Positions 4,734 to 46,653 of a DNA stretch of 64,000 nucleotides are shown in pieces. Each line of letters opens with the position of its first letter. Positions within the stretch are counted from its first letter, which is position 1. Source of the stretch: Rusavskia elegans (lineage: Eukaryota > Ascomycota > Lecanoromycetes > Teloschistales > Teloschistaceae); NCBI GenBank assembly GCA_011316305.1, contig SAUG01000164.1, positions 38,001 through 102,000 of the forward strand, given 5' to 3'. A program made the translations under genes and the position numbers. The notes beneath the pieces are model-generated. The model was given only the letters and a program-made list of their open reading frames with translations. It ran no database searches and had not been told where the DNA came from.

Positions 4734-5960
4734 CCTCCTTCCCGATACTCCCGCTTCCATTCCATTCCATTCTTTCCAATCATACAACACATCATCTCGT
4801 ATAAATCGGTACAATCTTTCTCTTCCGTCAACTCTACTACACTCCCAGCTGCTGTCAGAATCCAAAGCTTGATTGTACTTATATCTAACTTCGCCCGCGT
4901 GCATGACTGGATGACTAGATCCCTTGCCCCCTTCTTTCTTTTGTTTGGTGGATGATAATGGAGACCCGGGTGTGAAGATGGGAAGAGCGAAGAGGGGGTT
5001 GTGGGTTGTGGGTTTCATCTCCTCCATATAAATCTTATACGCTGCCATCAATCACCACTACACGACAACCGCACGAACTAATCCCACGCGGCCATTATTC
5101 AACCGTTTTTCTCCTCACAACCCAAAACACCGATACATCCACCTCAAACTAGAGAAATCCAAGTAGCACAGCATATCCTTCCCACAAAACCAAAACCAAC
5201 GCTCCCTTCTCTGGTAGCTCACACAAGCGCACAGACAAGGAAACAGGAGAACAAGAAAAATGTCAAATTAAACCCGCAGCCAACACTTTAAATACCATAT
5301 CCAACCCACTAAGATGATTTCCATACCATAAAAGCCCCCGCCCGGTGTTTAGATATTGATTTGCGGCTGGTTTATATATATTGCACTTGTTCTTTTTTTT
5401 CTTTTTTTTCTTTTTTTCTTTCTTTTTATCGATTCTTGTATCTTGATCTATAACCCACTTTCTACCTTAAACTATAGCCACTTTCCATCCCAAGCTATAA
5501 CCACTTTTTATCTCACCTCAACTTATATACAATCCCTTCAACTCCACTTCTTTATATCCTTACTATATCTATCTTTACCTATTATCTTTACCTCTTTCTA
5601 TCCTATCCTATCCTACGAACTCTATCCTCCGATCTTTTAAATCCCTTTTTATCCTCTAACCTCTATTTACAATTCTATCTTAACACTATTTATTTCCTAC
5701 CCCCTTTTATTCTATATATTATACCACTATCCTCCTTTTATCACCACTACTCCACAACCACTACCCCACTCCTCTATTTCCCCTTTAAAAACCCCTGCAC
5801 CTCTATTTTCCAAGAATACTCTATTATCTTATGCAATCACAATATAATATAATCATAACACAACCGCATACAGAGACGGATTCAAGAGGCACTTTGTAGT
5901 AAATCCGAGAAAAGGCTACAGGATAGGGGGAGATGGTAGATATAGATATCAGATAAGTAG

Positions 5961-37252: not shown

Positions 37253-40200
37253 ATGCATCTCTTCTCCGTAATAGTTGGGCTAGCGGCACCTGCCGTGGTG
37301 GCCGCTTCAAGCACATCTACTGTCACACACGATAGCACCAGCATCGAGGTGTACCAAAATGCATCTTCTATAATGGTCAACCCTACTCTTACTTCCCTCC
37401 AGTCATTGTTTCCGACGGCTACCAATGTGGCATCTCCTCCCCATCCTGAAACCCTTTATGCAACAACCCCTTCCAGTCTCTTCAATGAATATCCTGAACT
37501 CTTGAGTACTCCTAATGAAGACACGGCGACTCGCTTTGGCAACCCTATGCATGACACAATTGATGCCTTTCCCCCTAGTAACGGTCACCTGTTCCATAAT
37601 TCACCTCGTGCCAATCCTGTCCCAGCAGCGCCCAAGTGTGCCAAAACCCCGTTGACAAGGAAGATAGGTTACTACCAAGTGTAAGCCTACTTGTTCCAGA
37701 TCCTGTGACAATAGGAACGAGGCTGACAGCCAAATGTACACAGGACGAACGTCCGAAAGCGTCGATGCCATCGCATTACGCCCGCCGAGATTGACATCAA
37801 TGGACTAACCCATCTTAATGTGGCCTATGCCGCCATCGATCAGACCACCTACAAGATTGCCGCATCCCATCCGGATGACATTGGGCTGTACAAAGAACTG
37901 AATGCACGAAAAACTCCATCGATGCAGATCTGGATTGCTATCGGAGGATACGATTTCAATGATGCCAGCAGTCCGACCCATCGGACCTGGAGCCTGATGA
38001 CCTCGACGGTCGACCGGCGGACAACATTTATCCAGTCTCTCCGTGAATTCATGGATACTCATGGCTTCCAAGGTGTTGATCTGGACTGGGAGTATCCTTC
38101 GGCGAAAACCCTTGGGGGCTCTACTGGGGATGCGGCCAACTTTCTTGCCCTTGTCCGAGAAATGCGGGTTGCATGGGGCAAGAAGTATGGCATTAGTGCC
38201 ACACTTCCATCGGACGCCCCATATCTTGATGGCTACGATGCCAAAGGTATGGAACCACACGTGGACTTTTTCGGATACCTATCCTATGATTTGCATCCGG
38301 CATCGGATACAGAATTTGTCGTACGCTCTCACACAGATATTGGGCAGATCGAGAAGGCGACAGTGGCTTTGTGGTCGAAACATCTCGACCCAAAGAAAAT
38401 CAATCTTGGGCTATCGATGTATGGTCGAGGCTTTACTTTAGCCAACCGTGCCTGCGCTAGACCGGGATGCAAGGCCTTAGGTCCAAGCAGACCGGGTCTT
38501 TGTACTAATACCGCTGGCTCTCTATTCAACATCGAGATCAAGGATTTAGTCCAACAGAGGGGTCTTAAGGCCGAGATGGTATCAGATACGATGTCAAAGC
38601 AAGTATCTTGGGATGACCAGTGGGTTGGATTTGACGATAGTGAGACTCTGGCTGAGAAGACGAATTGGGCTGCAGAAAGTTGTTTTGGAGGGACTATGAT
38701 CTGGAGCCTTGACATGGACTCTGGGCAGAGCAGGTAAGGCCAATTATTCCCAGTCAGGGAATAATTTGTGATTGACAACGTCACAGGGGCAACGTACCCA
38801 GTCCCATCTCACCCGTCCCAGCCGCGCCCGGCAAATCAACGGCGGACAGTAGCACGGCCACCCCAGGAAAATCTCCAGATCGTCCGAGCACCTCAGGCCT
38901 AACATCCACTCAATCCGGCAGCAACATCGCCCCTATCATACCCCCTCCTATCGTGCCAGGTAAATCCTCACTCGATAAAAGCACGTCAAGTCGCTCGAAT
39001 GCAGTCACACCGTCCACTCGCTCTGGTCAACCAACCTCGGCTACTAGTCCTGCCCCGTCTACCTCAGCTCCAACCAAATCCCCGGGAAGTACATCTAAAC
39101 CTCCAAACGCGGCTACATCGTCTACTCAGTCCGGACAGACAGTCATACCGGTGGTACCTCCTCCTGTCGTGCCGGGCCGATCTTCATCACGTTCAAACAC
39201 ACTCGATCGGTCTAGTATTGTTACGTCTTCAAGTCAATCTGGACGGCAGACTACGGCTACTGTACCTGCTGCAAGCAAGTCGACAAGGTCTTCCTCTGGG
39301 GTTCGAGGCCAGACTGTGCCGGTTTTGCCCGTCCCTGTTGCTCCGGGTAAGTCTACGAATACTGTCAGCGCTGTTAATTCGTTGAGTAGATCCGCCCTGT
39401 CATTGCAGACTGGGTCGACGACATCTGGATCCTCGAAGACATCTAGGTCGTCGACAATATCTAGTCCTACCAGCGCTCGTTCTCAGGGAACCGGATCCCT
39501 TGCTTCTAGCCAATTAAATAGCGCAACTTCACAAGGCCAGGCGTCTGCAGCTGCCCTGATAATCCCAGGGATTGCTACGATACCAAGCCCCACCCTTGCA
39601 CCGGACTCAATAATCACCAAAGGCACAGGTGCTATCCTAGGCCTGATTCCGCTTGCAGTCGCGTTCCAACGGGAGCTTGCAGAAACCGAGCAGGATCTCG
39701 CTAAATACGGTGGTTCGGGTTCTACCAAGTGGGATGCCGTGCAGCGAAGACAGGCTACTTTACCGAAGCCTGACGACGTCAATAAGACACTAGAGAAGCT
39801 GGCTTCGGCATACGCTCTGCTGGGACTACTCGAAAAGGAAGTGGGATTGATCGAAATCAACTCCCTCGCAGCGGACGTGCAGAAAATCTTCGACGGCATC
39901 AAGAAAGCGTTGCCTGGCATTGACAGTGGTATCAAGGCTGGGATCACCAGTCTTACGAATTCAATTAAGAATCCCGGAAAAGTGAATGGACAGGACATCG
40001 GCAAGGCCAATTCACTGCTTGGTGAAAAGGGAAGCGTGACCCAACAAGTCGCCGCAACCTTCAAGCAGTTAACCGGCTGGAAAGCACCGATCGGGAGCAA
40101 TGACCTCATATTGCCTGGTCTGCTGACCCTGCCGAGTCCGTCACTCGATGATAGTTGGAAAGGTACAGTCATCCCTGGTGTCCTCACCATCCCTAGTCCT

Positions 40201-43200
40201 ACACTGCATTGGAGCAAAGCACTGATGTCTGGATCTAACCCTGGAGGAGCTGCTGGGGCTGCTCCTGGAGGAGCCTCTGGAGGAGCCTCTGGAGGAGCCT
40301 CTGGAGGTGCCGCTGGTGGTGCCGCTGGTGGAGCCGCTGGTGGAGCAGGTGGTGGTATCTTGTCCGGTCTTCTTGGTCTTGCCAAACAAGCCGAAGGCGC
40401 CGTGAGCAACGCAGGGAAAGAGCTCACTCGTTTGAGCGGGCTTGCTAACATAGGTGCCAACGAACTCTCCAATGCCGTCAGCCTCGTCACCTCAGCTACC
40501 GAAGGTCAGTGTATCCCCCCATCAAGCAGTCTCTTGTGCTAACAAGGTGTAGACGTGGGCGGTCTAGGTGCAGCTCTCGACTCATCTCTCAGCGATGCAT
40601 ACGAGTTGAACGAGAGATTCCCGCCCCAGGATGTGAGCAAAGTCGTCCAAGCGCAGACTGCGAACAAGGCTCTTTCCGCGGATCTCAAAACCGTTCTGAA
40701 TGATCTCGCTCAATTCATTACCAAGCCAGCTCAGTCACTCCAGACCATAAAACGACATGCGCCAAAGTTTGTGATCGGCGGCACCATTTTGGCGTTGCTT
40801 GCCAAATCCGATTCAGCTGTGATAGTCGATTTTCCGAAGCCGGTACCCATCATAGTAGGACCATCTAATTCAACGACAAAGAAACCTGTGGAAGAGTTTT
40901 TCATGGTGACTGTGGAAAATACGACCGTGGAAGCTTTCCAGAAGTTCATCGTGACCCTGCCGGATCGCGGCGCTGGACGTCAGCAACACTATGACTGGCC
41001 AAGAAGATATCAGACTTACGTTGGCAACATGACGCTGGAAGAAGCCTTAGCTGTGAACGAAAATTCAGTCCTGAATGGTAAGCGTATCATTGATATGATT
41101 GGCCCAAACGAGATCATAGGGGAACCAGCCTTCTTCATGCCCGACAAAAGATCGAACCAAACAACATTGCATCCCCGAGTCAACCCTACTTGGGAAGTAC
41201 AAAGGAGAATTGAATCGAGACTCCACCTGCGCATGCTGTCGTACGATCCCCAGACAAGATTGGATCTCCTTCATAATCAACCCGTGACCGGTATTGGGGC
41301 CCAATACGACTATCGGCATGAGGTGAGTTCTGGTAAGGGTGCAGCTATCTATGTTCTTGATGAAGGCTTTGACTTTCAGCATGAGGTCAGTCTCCATGTT
41401 ATACTCCTGTGCGTGCTGCAAACTTTGCCTTGTGGTCTCACTCACATCACAGCAATTCGATCGAGGGGTCGATTTGAGACCAGAGACCTTTGTGCCACCG
41501 TTTTATGGCAATATGCCCATAACGTCGCAACATGGTCATGGCGAAATATGCGCTGCTATGGCTGTTGGTAGTCAGCTAGGGGTTGCAAATCAAGCAACTC
41601 TAGTCGCAGTCAAGCTGAGAGGTGGTACAGGCTCATCTAGAGTCGAAGCGCTCTACGAGGCCTTCAGGTTTGTAGTACAGGATGTGCGGTCCAAGTCCCG
41701 TGAAGGAAAAGCAGTCATGAGCTGTAGTATTTGTGAGAATTTCTCTCATCTAACTTTGTTTGGCTGACGCTAAACTGTTGTAGCATGGCGGTATCCTATT
41801 GCTATTGCTGCTTTCCCTTACCACAAATTACCTACGGATTATCAGCGTTGGGGTCTGGTGGAACCAGAACATCCAGACTTTTTCCTCCCGCTGGTGGCAG
41901 ATATGTGGGCCGCAGACATCGTGACAATCTTCTCAGGCGGCAACAAACGAGAAGGTGCTGATAACAACATTATGGGTAGTAATTCTCCCCAGCGCTTCGC
42001 AAATCCGAACAATGAGTTGATCATCGCTGGATCGGTCGACAAATACGGGCTGCCAAGTAGGTTCGATAAGGAAGTTGGACCTGCGCCAGGCGCAATCGGA
42101 CGCGATCTCCAGCTAACTGGAGAGTATACCGTCTACGCAATGGGGGAGGACGTCGATGTAATCATAGCTGGATCGCAAAATGGCTATGGAAAAGGAACCG
42201 GCAATTCTGCTTCGGCTCCTCAAATTGCCGGGCTTGCGGCTTATCTCTTGAGACTGCCTGGCATACTCTGGCCGCCGGGCCAAGTGCCAAAGGTCATGAA
42301 AGATTATATTGTTGCTAAGAAACGAACGGGTCCGAGATCTCCTGATGGCTTTGGTATAGGTTACAACGTTATCGAGGAGATCCTTGCGTGGTGCCAGCGT
42401 CCACCTCCAGGATTTGGAAAGTCACGAAGATGGTATGTTGAATACACAGCGTTATCAGACTACCTTGGAAGAGTCTTCAGGCGCCAGCAGAACGGCAAGA
42501 GTAGAGAGATCACTATCTTCAAAGATGGACATCTCACTGATTCGAAGTATTCCAACGAGGTTAGTTGACCCTTTTTGTTCTCCTTAGAAAGTCCATTTAT
42601 GGGCTTGGAGTATGGCGACCCAGCTGCTGATGGTCCATCTCACAAATCCAGTTCCGTTGTAAGCTACCAGGTGGCTTCGAGCCAAAACCGACATGGTCAA
42701 CCAAGACGTCATCCCCATCGACCACAACATCGAGCAAGCCAAAACCAACAAGCTCATACAAACCCATGACAACACTCGCAAAAACCAACCAAACATGCTA
42801 CTCGGATCCGAAACTGAAAAGCAAAGGCTCAAGCTTTCATGAGGAAGATATGGCGGCGTTCATCAACATTACATGTTCAGCATCCAAAGGGTTCGACATC
42901 TACCAATACGTGGCTGCTAGAAACGACAAAGACGTCAATCTCTATCTAACAGCGACTAAAGCCAAGGCCACTGTTACCTTCAAAGAAAAGGACTGCCTCG
43001 ATGGCTTCTACCTTGCTGTCCAGAACTGTACGTATACCTACACTTATCCGACCACATTACAGCCTAGGCTTGAAAAGAAGTTGTATTGACATTCCTCCCC
43101 CCAGGTGACAAGAACACAGACAAGAAACAAGGCGGCAGTATTCAGCTTGGAGACGTCCACTATTATGCCAATGCCGCAAAGCTCGTGCCGTCACCTACCC

Positions 43201-44222
43201 CCTCACCCAAACCTCCGCCCGCACCGGCACCAGCACCTGCACCGAAGCCAACACTCACACCTATTCCCCCGCCGGCGCCACCCAAAACACCAAATTTACC
43301 TCCTCCCGCCAAGGACTCGGACTGTTACTCGAAGGACAAACAACAAACCAGGGCCCAAGACTTTAACGTCCAAGACATGTACAGAGCCATCAAAGATGCA
43401 TGCACCACAACGGAGAAATACCCATTTGAAGTCCTCGCCATCGCCGATAATGGCCAGAAGGCACTAAGGCTCAAAGCGGGAAATATAAAAGCTCCAAAGC
43501 AAAAGTCACCTTTCCCAAAGGATGAATGTATATCCGCTCTGACGAGGGCTGTCGATCAATGTAAGTTTGCCAACAAGTTCCTTCCCCTATCCCCTCCCGC
43601 CTTCTTTCCAGCCACGATCGGAAAACTCACTTACTCACTTTCCTTCAATCAGGCGAAAGAGAAGGCGATCGTAGCTACGGTGGCCATGTCGACACTGGCA
43701 AACTAGACTATGACGCCTCGGCCAGCAAAATCGACCAGGATGAGAAGGACATCAACTGTTATACCAAAAAGGAGAATATCGAGATTCTTCGTTCCCCCTT
43801 CTTCGACCAACCTGGTGCCCTCGCTGCTATCCAGAAAGCGTGCTCGGGTCCCGATCGTTGGCAGTTCGAACACGTGGATTACAACCCTAATGATAAGGAT
43901 AAGCCGTTGTATACATTCACGGTGGATGTGAAGAAAAGGGAAGTGTGGGTTGGATTTGATAAGGGGCTCTGCGTCAAGGCGTTTGAAAGTATTGTGAAGA
44001 AATGTGAGTTTCGCGTTCTCGATTTCTTGATGCTTTTATTTTGTGCGGTTTCTTTGTTGGAGAGCAGAGGAGGATGCAATGAAGTGTGTTTGTGGAAGAT
44101 GAGTGCTGATGATTAGTATAGGCAAAGATCAGAGGAAAGGTAAGCTTTGGGGCGGAAGTTGGAACATTGAGGATATCAAGTTCGATTTCTTTGTTGGTAA
44201 GGGTGGTGAAGATGGACAATAG
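37253..44222 (+). CDS. Secreted GH18 chitinase - subtilisin (S8) chimera with Cys-rich C-terminal modules, about 2,102 aa
   Basis: Ten exons: 37253-37680, 37744-38733, 38787-40504, 40553-41385, 41453-41732, 41784-42559, 42652-43027, 43105-43560, 43653-44003 and 44122-44222; all nine introns are GT-AG and every phase fits, total 6,309 nt. Order: signal peptide (MHLFSVIVGLAAPAVVA); about 120 residues without known domain; GH18 domain from KIGYYQV (about residue 138) to MIWSLDMD (about 467), with catalytic GVDLDWEYP; a Ser/Thr/Pro linker with repeated VPPPxVPG words; helical region; Gly/Ala repeat (about 960-1000); a possible inhibitor-like prodomain; subtilisin domain with Asp in VLDEGFD, His in QHGHGEICA, Asn in FSGGNK and Ser in GNSASAPQIAGLAA; then three Cys modules. 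It probably cleaves chitin and peptides outside the cell. Alternative: two genes; unspliced, the chitinase would stop at 38737, just after the GH18 domain. Confidence 0.75.
40242..40350 (+). repeat. In-frame 12-bp coding repeat (Gly-Gly-Ala-Ser/Ala)
   Basis: Tandem copies of GGAGGAGCCTCT and variants, giving GGAS and GGAA units in the linker of the chimera. The length (a multiple of 3) keeps frame; it probably forms a flexible spacer between the chitinase half and the protease half. Confidence 0.85.
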
Positions 44223-44952
44223 GTATGTCATCTCTGCAGATAAAAGTTGAGAGACGGGGCATGCAGTGGTCGATTTGGTCAGTGAAATTCAAGGGTCGGA
44301 CTCAAGAGATATTTTTTCTATGGGGGAGATAATAGTTCTTGTACGATAGAGATACTCACAGATCAGGAGGTGCTCTTTCAGAGATGGGAAGATTGGCCCA
44401 TAAACATATCTGTAGGATAGGAACAGAAAGATGCTCCCTTGGTGCGATGCATTCAGGGGTTCAGTTGATACGGGGACGTCAAAGTGTTCTAATAGTAACA
44501 TTTGTAGGGCACAAGCCCTTGTAGTTGCTGTCCCGAAATTCGCGTCGAATTATATCTTGCGACTTAGCATACTTAGCATCAAGTAACGCACTTTTGATCT
44601 CTACAACCTTCTGATATTGCGGTCTCATACGTGAGAGAACACCCAACCACTGGTCTTCCCATATGGAATTTCCCTTTGACTGCGTACGATTTCAAGATTG
44701 AATGATAGCCATTGTGACTTTCTTACGGATATCAATTTCTTTGTCTTCTACCGCACTTCCAGTCTTTGTTCTTTCTTATTCGTCCTGATAATGGTCATTG
44801 TATTGGGATTCTCATTACTACAATAGTCATGGGTGATCATTTGCTTGTGTCGTCAAACGTTCGGAGTCGCTACGTGCATCGTCTTGGTTGTGACTTGTCG
44901 CATCCGTCGACTGATCACCATCTCGTTGGCTACACATAAACTACAGTACAGT
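44223..44952. other. Intergenic, nothing recognised
   Basis: 730 bases between the chimera and the second kinase, both on the plus strand; terminator and promoter must lie here. A frame continuous with the kinase starts at 44833 but is not protein-like before 44953. Confidence 0.4.
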
Positions 44953-46653
44953 ATGGGTTTCGTCAACTTGTTCGCCGGTATCCGAAAGAACAAGGCTAAC
45001 ACGATGAAGCAGAGTCCAACCGTGAGGGACCTAGGGATTTCATCCCCACTGCCCCAGGAAGTATCTCAGTATGATACCTATCCAGGCATTGATCTTCTCA
45101 GGCAAGGCGGAGTTAAACGAGCACCCCATGTACGACGACCTAATGAGCCTCTCCAAGAAGCTCATATTGTGCAGAGACGCCGCCGGATAGGCTATGCCGA
45201 TCTGGACTACGACAGCGACCTAGGTCTGCAAGGTGGCGCACATCGGATCGGAGAATTGTACCCAGAACACGAAGTTCGTCAAGCTGATTCGGGGTATGGC
45301 ACTGACAAGCATTTAGGCCCTGGGGATGTCTCCTTGGGTGGTAAAGTGCAAAACATCGAGACTAGTTCAATCGGCCAGACTCCTGCCTCAAAAAAGCCGA
45401 AGGAAGAACCCTTCGAAGGACGTATTGAGCTCTCCGAAATCTGTCAAGATGGCAACGAATATCAGGTGTCCGGCATCTTCGGCTCTGTAACTCGAAGACC
45501 AAGTATCCCTCAGCGCAACCCACTGCGAAAAGCGAGTCTCATCCCCAGTGACATCTCATTGCAATCGTTCACTCAAAACTCCCAAGCAACCCTCTGCGGC
45601 AGCATCAAATCCAACGGTAAGTACGAGATCGAAGAATCCAGCTTCAAGAAAGATTTCTGGTGGGTCAGAGACGTCGGCGAAGGCGGTTTCGGCAAAGTCG
45701 AACTCCGCAAACACAAAACCACCGCTCAACTCCTCGTCCTCAAAACCACCCGCACCGTCGTCGACTACATCGACAACATCCCCGCAGAAGTCTATATAAT
45801 CCGCGATATCCTCGGCAACGTACACGCCAACCTCCCCAAACTCTACCACTTCAACCACTCCCTCGCGCAGCTCGAATACTGGATGGAATACTGCGACGGC
45901 AACGATCTCGTCACCTTCGAAGAATACCACCTCCTCACAAAAACCCTAGTCCCCGAAGGCTTCCTCTGGCACACTCTAATCTCGCTCTCCTCCGCCCTCG
46001 CCTTCCTACACACCGGCGTCGACCGCGCCAACCCCGACCGTCCCCCACCACAAAACTGGCGCCCCATCATCCACCGAGATATAAAACCCGACAACGTCTT
46101 CCTCAAACTCCCCTCCCGTTCCGCCACCAGCAATAAAACCCCAAAATACCCAACCCTCGTCCTCGGCGACTTCGGCCTCGCAACCCCTTACCTCTCCAGC
46201 CAATCCACAAACTACTACATCGGCACCCCCGCCTACCAACCCCCACAACTCCCCCTCCACACCACCCACTCCGATATCTGGGCCGCAGGCGCCATCGTAC
46301 ATTACCTCGCCGTCGGCTCCGCGCCCATCGCCCCACAACCCTACTACGATTCCCGCTCGTTGGGCGAATTCGAATGCGATCCTTCGGTCCGCGAAGTCCA
46401 GGATGTGACGTGTTTGAAGGGTGGGAAGGAGGGGTATAGTGCTGTGCTGAAAGAGTATTTGGGCATGTGGTTGTGTTGGGAGGAGGAGAGGCGGCCGAGG
46501 GGGTTGCGGGGGGTGTTGAGGGCGGAGGCGGGGAGGTTGATGTTTTTGGCGGATGGGGGGGTGGAGGACGATGTGGAGATGTGGGAGGGGTGGATTAGGA
46601 GGGGGGATGTGGGTGTTGCGGTGAGGACGGAGAATGGGGCGAAGGGGTTTTAA
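44953..46653 (+). CDS. Ser/Thr protein kinase related to the one at 31263, 566 aa
   Basis: Single exon; ATG 44953 starts MGFVNLFAGIRKNKAN, comparable with the start of the first kinase. Residues 1-230 are charged and probably disordered. Kinase features: DVGEGGFGKVEL (complete glycine loop), LVLKTTR with the catalytic Lys, PEGFLWHTLISLSSALAFLH, HRDIKPDNVFL, LGDFGLATP, GTPAYQPPQ where most kinases have APE, and SDIWAAGAIVHYLAVG. Catalytic residues are complete. The final 80 codons are strongly G-rich on the coding strand. Together with the first kinase it brackets the receptor-like gene and the chitinase-subtilisin gene. Function unknown. Confidence 0.85.
   Translation: MGFVNLFAGIRKNKANTMKQSPTVRDLGISSPLPQEVSQYDTYPGIDLLRQGGVKRAPHVRRPNEPLQEAHIVQRRRRIGYADLDYDSDLGLQGGAHRIGELYPEHEVRQADSGYGTDKHLGPGDVSLGGKVQNIETSSIGQTPASKKPKEEPFEGRIELSEICQDGNEYQVSGIFGSVTRRPSIPQRNPLRKASLIPSDISLQSFTQNSQATLCGSIKSNGKYEIEESSFKKDFWWVRDVGEGGFGKVELRKHKTTAQLLVLKTTRTVVDYIDNIPAEVYIIRDILGNVHANLPKLYHFNHSLAQLEYWMEYCDGNDLVTFEEYHLLTKTLVPEGFLWHTLISLSSALAFLHTGVDRANPDRPPPQNWRPIIHRDIKPDNVFLKLPSRSATSNKTPKYPTLVLGDFGLATPYLSSQSTNYYIGTPAYQPPQLPLHTTHSDIWAAGAIVHYLAVGSAPIAPQPYYDSRSLGEFECDPSVREVQDVTCLKGGKEGYSAVLKEYLGMWLCWEEERRPRGLRGVLRAEAGRLMFLADGGVEDDVEMWEGWIRRGDVGVAVRTENGAKGF

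Follow-up and report, generated by a model that had tools for sequence, protein, structure and literature searches.

A predicted secreted protein joining a GH18 chitinase to an S8 protease with a hypervariable cassette in Rusavskia elegans and other Teloschistaceae

The stretch of DNA analysed here, referred to below as the window, comprises 64,000 nucleotides of the Rusavskia elegans genome (C72:38001-102000, in an assembly of 44.16 Mb and 217 contigs) and carries on its forward strand a gene whose predicted product runs from a signal peptide through a GH18 domain, Ser/Thr/Pro and helical linkers, a propeptide and a proteinase-K-like S8 domain to a series of cysteine modules. The features of this gene are as follows, residue numbers being those of the predicted protein:

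37253..44222, + strand: whole gene, 10 exons, predicted 2102-residue protein
37253-37680, 37744-38733, 38787-40504, 40553-41385, 41453-41732, + strand: exons 1-5
41784-42559, 42652-43027, 43105-43560, 43653-44003, 44122-44222, + strand: exons 6-10
38734-38786, + strand: intron 2, splitting the GH18 exon from the linker exon; phase the same in the C20 paralogue
37253..37306, + strand: putative signal peptide, residues 1-18, identified by eye (hydrophobic, A-x-A end)
37664..38719, + strand: GH18 domain, residues 138-468, from Pfam, motif GFQGVDLDWEYP at 250; spans intron 1
38791..40851, + strand: linker, residues 475-1145, successively Ser/Thr/Pro-rich, helical, Gly/Ala-rich and helical; spans intron 3 (40505-40552)
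40864..41202, + strand: propeptide-like domain, residues 1150-1262, from the predicted fold in relative P0019
40903..42514, + strand: hypervariable cassette, residues ~1163-1660 (propeptide, protease and next segment), from P0002-P0003 sliding identity
41203..41208, + strand: dibasic pair Arg1263-Arg1264 preceding the mature protease, present in 10 of 14 covered relatives
41209..42370, + strand: S8 protease, residues 1265-1612, with Asp1315, His1352, Asn1470 and Ser1558; spans introns 4 and 5
42425..42484, + strand: short segment enclosed by the dibasic pairs at 1631-1632 and 1649-1650 (SRRW...FRRQ)
42784..44219, + strand: Cys-rich tail, modules at ~1720-1830, 1870-1975 and 1985-2085; spans introns 7-9

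When joined, the exons give 2102 codons with a single, terminal stop, which bears out the unbroken ten-exon frame of the preliminary description, and the coordinates first claimed for introns 2 and 3 proved to be exact. All nine introns are of the GT-AG type, with lengths of 48-118 nt; for intron 1 a donor at 37679 was rejected because it breaks the frame, the working donor being 37681. Exon 3, which alone accounts for about 573 codons, has no stops in its own frame, whereas the two alternative frames contain 25 and 18; base shuffling, repeated 2000 times, never left the exon's own frame open. The gene is flanked upstream by a frame matching Fung_rhodopsin (PF20684; 34530-35510, E 5e-41) and downstream by a protein kinase frame of 608 codons (44827-46653, E 7e-24).

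Residues 3-18 have a mean hydropathy of 2.37, near the top for the whole chain, which backs the putative signal peptide. The GH18 domain matches Pfam Glyco_hydro_18 with an E-value of 4.2e-54 (184.8 bits, cut-off 29.6), and within this match the DxxDxDxE-type motif GFQGVDLDWEYP is found as well as IAIGG (SxGG-like) and YLSYD, in agreement with the intact catalytic motif initially noted. Peptidase_S8 was not listed in the whole-chain Pfam scan at E up to 0.1; scanned by itself, the S8 segment matches the full profile at 1e-16 (61.5 bits, cut-off 21.8), genome frames also exceed this cut-off, and phmmer searches with the S8 part returned 5z6o (4e-15) and proteinase K (4e-9). The four catalytic residues pair up with the corresponding S8 residues when relatives are aligned and are thus retained, as had been claimed, although in off-consensus motifs (D-E-G, H-G-E and G-N-S). 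The propeptide-like domain found no Pfam match when scanned alone; in the AlphaFold model of P0019 it forms a compact alpha-beta fold, with blocks at pLDDT 92-95. From the end of GH18 (468) to the propeptide (~1150) the separation is about 680 residues rather than the roughly 580 first given.

The last part of the chain, residues 1613-2102, contains 14 cysteines and is weakly similar to alpha-galactosyl-binding lectins (PF18647/PF21691). For PF18647 the whole chain scores 27.3 bits against a cut-off of 26.5, no single stretch being significant; when the modules are scanned singly, two give 17.3 and 15.1 bits, under the lectin cut-off, and the middle module gives no match, so the lectin likeness, as judged from profile scores, is marginal. 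In the genome frame search Fungal_lectin_2 (PF18647) passes at one place only, C14:27673-27864.

A paralogue of 2055 residues and 10 exons lies on contig C20 of the same genome, with an identical order of GH18, linker, S8 and tail and with 9 of 9 intron phases matching those of the window gene, the two proteins sharing 62% identity in GH18 and 40% in the S8 domain. Its linker contains a long Gly-rich run (L034, about 5761-5940). Elsewhere, at C71:121500-129500 (L039), broken-looking GH18 pieces with stops, 62-70% like the window GH18 and listed out of order among the matches, perhaps belong to a decayed copy.

Three protein-collection searches, the first covering proteins of 0.55-1.75 times the 2102-residue length and the second and third scoring about 7990 candidates each, returned 38 proteins, of which 27 were assigned to the S8 lineage by alignment and tail motif (P0001-P0012, P0017-P0020, P0022-P0029, P0032-P0034), the other 11 being GDSL/FG-GAP-type or more distant S8 proteins. 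GH18 and S8 occur in one predicted protein in 13 of these 27, from nine genera (Rusavskia, Flavoplaca, Seirophora, Gallowayella, Gyalolechia, Blastenia, Variospora, Polycauliona and Xanthomendoza), all nine belonging to the Teloschistaceae and representing both Xanthorioideae and Caloplacoideae. The closest relative is P0001, also from R. elegans, with 89.8% identity over the gene; its model has an earlier start, probably because another frame has been merged into it. The remaining 14 proteins have no GH18 in their predictions and are mostly short and fragment-like: P0026-P0029 resemble exon 4 frames continuing into intron 4, and P0023 (Xanthoria calcicola) is a 645-residue model starting inside the protease. 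One of them, P0004 (1275 residues, on a 131-kb contig, starting inside the linker), may truly lack GH18.

These predictions also bear on whether two adjacent genes, a chitinase and a subtilisin, have been misjoined by the exon model. Such a reading could draw on the TAA inside intron 2 that closes the GH18 frame when this intron is left unspliced, yielding a chitinase alone, and on the relatives predicted without GH18, but the first in-frame Met past the GH18 exon is residue 953 (40225), leaving the downstream frame with no earlier start and no signal peptide of its own, and the linker is conserved at the protein level (its helical parts are 64-79% identical to those of two Flavoplaca proteins). 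Since the paralogue uses the same exons and 13 of the 27 relatives are single fused proteins, the fusion is no accident of gene modelling, and we reject the misjoining of two genes as highly improbable. The preliminary description of one predicted secreted polypeptide with both motifs is supported, its further suggestion of a weapon or nutrient enzyme being conjectural, and the Glyco_18 plus Peptidase_S8 architecture having been sought and found among relatives that are not always encoded as two genes. On sequence grounds the GH18-S8 fusion is real and old. That it has no established name also agrees with the literature searched, in which no report of a GH18-S8 fusion was found among the matches listed.

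Compared with known systems, the window protein resembles subgroup C (killer-toxin-like) chitinases in being a long, predicted secreted GH18 protein with extra modules. Subgroup C chitinases are described, in the text consulted from PMC3218866, as carrying CBM18 and CBM50; the window protein differs in having an S8 zymogen and a Cys-rich tail, neither CBM18 nor LysM being among the three Pfam families listed for it at E up to 0.1. Among the unfused GH18 sequences of the genome, the nearest is on C180, 48-53% identical in two exons, ahead of a Chitin_bind_1 frame. With proteinase-K-like S8 subtilases the window protein shares the Asp/His/Asn/Ser order, and its relative P0019 a matching predicted fold, but it departs from them in its off-consensus motifs, in a propeptide without a Pfam match and in a position some 1150 residues into a chitinase.

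An S8 domain of the kind found in the window protein follows an unrelated N-terminal module in P0013-P0015 and P0035, proteins of lichen fungi in which the partner is GDSL esterase-like and/or FG-GAP (not both in all four) instead of GH18, and of which P0013-P0015 also lack the long Cys tail of the window protein; P0013 contains GDSL, FG-GAP and S8 in one protein. S8 relatives are present at three more loci of the genome (C31, C51 and C61), with FG-GAP repeats upstream at C51 and C61 and no family found in the scan of the C31 frame. Distant non-lichen S8 proteins were returned as well, e.g., P0038 from Collariella with WSC, GDSL and S8. Judged from these architectures, the S8 part acts as a carrier whose partners change, and because such partners also occur outside lichens the layout of a hydrolase plus S8 may predate its GH18 version.

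The most variable portion of the protein was delimited by comparing two Flavoplaca sequences, P0002 and P0003, which are 91% identical in GH18, 92-95% in the linkers and 91% in the last two Cys modules, compared with 63% in the propeptide, 53% in S8 and 43% directly behind S8. The borders of this cassette are sharp, near residues 1163 and 1660, and since the first of them falls inside exon 4 it is not an exon border. The pair P0005 and P0011 shows the same kind of divergence (80-87% against 45-47%), whereas window-P0001 (95% in the protease, 94% in the flanks) and P0007-P0008 (94% and 91%) show no cassette excess.

Trees of nine sequences were compared between the linker (1050-1148) and the propeptide (1158-1232, about 75 residues). 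In these nine sequences the linker follows genus background, a grouping by type being rejected with a difference of 64 log units, while the 75 propeptide columns reject grouping by genus (difference 36.7, p-AU 2e-4) and fall into a type V (window, P0001, P0003, P0017 and P0026) and a type M (P0029, P0002, P0027 and P0028). Identity across genera is 85-89% within one type and 66-75% between types, and since the former is close to that of the linker (81-87%) old types are favoured over recent exchange. Nine of ten type-diagnostic sites lie at 1165-1204, a patch of about 40 residues, with just one beyond 1233, where the protease shows a mosaic pattern and the types are no longer clean. On these nine sequences only, the conflict between type and genus resembles ancient shared polymorphism.

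The two types could instead represent old paralogues at two loci, with gene-converted flanks or swapped cassettes, rather than alleles, an explanation that we hold to be possible without favouring it. The family does duplicate, as the window gene and C20 illustrate, the name Flavoplaca navasiana is borne by three kinds of protein (P0002, P0007 and P0018), the shared-type signal is confined to a short patch, and a second type within one genome could go unseen because the database is clustered at 90%. Against this, one such locus is found here, an M-type query of the genome giving the window gene as its best match (80%), followed by C20 (48%), with no second, M-type copy found; moreover, R. elegans, F. 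citrina, F. austrocitrina and F. navasiana each returned a single type.

Catalytic residues are another source of variation within the family. Among 15 sequences with a GH18 part (window, C20 and 13 relatives), the catalytic Glu is kept in 10, is unreadable in P0008, whose model lacks this stretch, and is replaced in four proteins from four different genera, by Asn in P0005 and by Gln in P0009, P0010 and P0034, so that chitin cleavage is not always needed. Of 23 sequences of the S8 lineage, 13 keep Asp, His and Ser, three are too short (P0017, P0020 and P0022) and seven lack His and/or Ser (C20, P0012, P0018, P0023, P0033, P0011 and P0034), five of these forming a protease-dead clade with support of 1.000 (C20, Polycauliona P0012 and P0033, Flavoplaca P0018 and Xanthoria P0023).

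Taking both enzymes together, six of the 15 are intact (window, P0001, P0002, P0003, P0006 and P0007, with the S8 Asn missing in P0006 and Glu in place of one Asp of the GH18 motif in P0007), three have lost the chitinase, four the protease and one both, and one is unreadable. A rule of at least one active enzyme per protein was rejected: it holds for 13 of 14 readable proteins, but Xanthomendoza P0034, with neither the chitinase Glu nor the protease His, breaks it. As far as residues allow one to judge, either enzyme can die, independently, while the fused frame stays open. Evidence against the proposed maturation of the chain by the protease, taken as a general rule, comes from five members, C20 included, in which the readable protease residues are lost and the fusion persists with no active protease.

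The AlphaFold model of the protease-dead P0018 compares with proteinase K at TMt 0.75 (mean pLDDT 67), and that of the triad-keeping P0019 with A. fumigatus alkaline protease at 0.80 and proteinase K at 0.76-0.79 (mean pLDDT 70.9). Between the window gene and C20, synonymous sites are saturated in six of nine segments, so dN/dS was dropped and only pN and pS were used; on these near-saturated synonymous sites, pN stays under pS throughout the nine segments, including the dead protease (0.41 vs 0.71).

An ordinary nutritional or wall-remodelling hydrolase with no special target, whose protease is merely drifting, would account for the repeated losses of the S8 His or Ser and the GH18 Glu, but not for a protease 53% identical beside parts at 91% in P0002-P0003 when window-P0001 and P0007-P0008 are even throughout, nor, by drift alone, for two opposed trees; pN below pS even in the dead protease also speaks against it, and we consider it unlikely. 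The fast-changing protease part hints that it meets something variable, and a wall-acting protein with a diversifying protease, serving defence or recognition, would fit these sequence patterns best.

Possible processing sites were sought in the form of dibasic pairs. Besides the pair preceding the mature protease, pairs are found behind it near 1631-1633 in 15 of 20 sequences and near 1650-1653 in 18 of 20, the latter followed by a conserved stretch; the segment of about 16-18 residues that they enclose could be a released peptide or merely a basic-flanked helix. Pairs inside folded domains are equally conserved (near 148-150 in GH18, 9 of 9; near 1597 in S8, 17 of 20), and dibasic sites were for this reason rejected as proof of processing and taken as a hint only, which leaves processing of the precursor into two chains plausible but weak.

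Bringing these observations together, we lean slightly towards a Teloschistaceae family of secreted precursors in which a GH18 chitinase is followed by a long linker, a propeptide-bearing S8 zymogen and a Cys-rich, possibly sugar-binding tail. Such a precursor would go to the wall space, where GH18, and perhaps also the tail, would place it in, or open a way through, the chitin-containing wall; the propeptide would hold the protease until Kex2-like or self-cleavage at dibasic sites frees it, and its variable target would most likely be proteins of other fungi or of microbes in the thallus, or else those of kin that are not identical.

A bolder version, which we regard as quite unlikely at present, makes the gene a secreted recognition or conflict locus, in which the chitinase would bring a polymorphic propeptide-protease cassette to the zone where two walls meet, tuned to self and cutting proteins of kin that are not identical or of intruding fungi, with types older than the split between Rusavskia-like and Flavoplaca lineages and dead paralogues acting as binders or decoys. 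PCSK9 is a subtilisin that acts by binding. Known recognition genes include, in the excerpts consulted from PMC12881547, PMC7159315 and PMC10197012, Podospora HET-Q2, a subtilisin-like protease, and Neurospora CWR-1, a wall-active polysaccharide monooxygenase, trans-species polymorphism being described there for Neurospora checkpoints. HET-Q2 and CWR-1 are separate genes, and the likeness is one of description; from this parallel a recognition role is thinkable, no more.

A lichen fungus has to live with its alga, to merge with other thalli or reject them and to withstand the fungi that dwell in lichens, and the molecules known to serve these tasks are few. The joining of a wall enzyme to a rapidly changing protease across the family offers a concrete candidate for a molecule of this kind, and two enzymes in one chain, either of them able to lose catalysis, constitute a natural experiment on the purpose of the fusion. 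If the cassette types prove to be alleles, the gene would amount to a secreted recognition locus open to testing in lichens.
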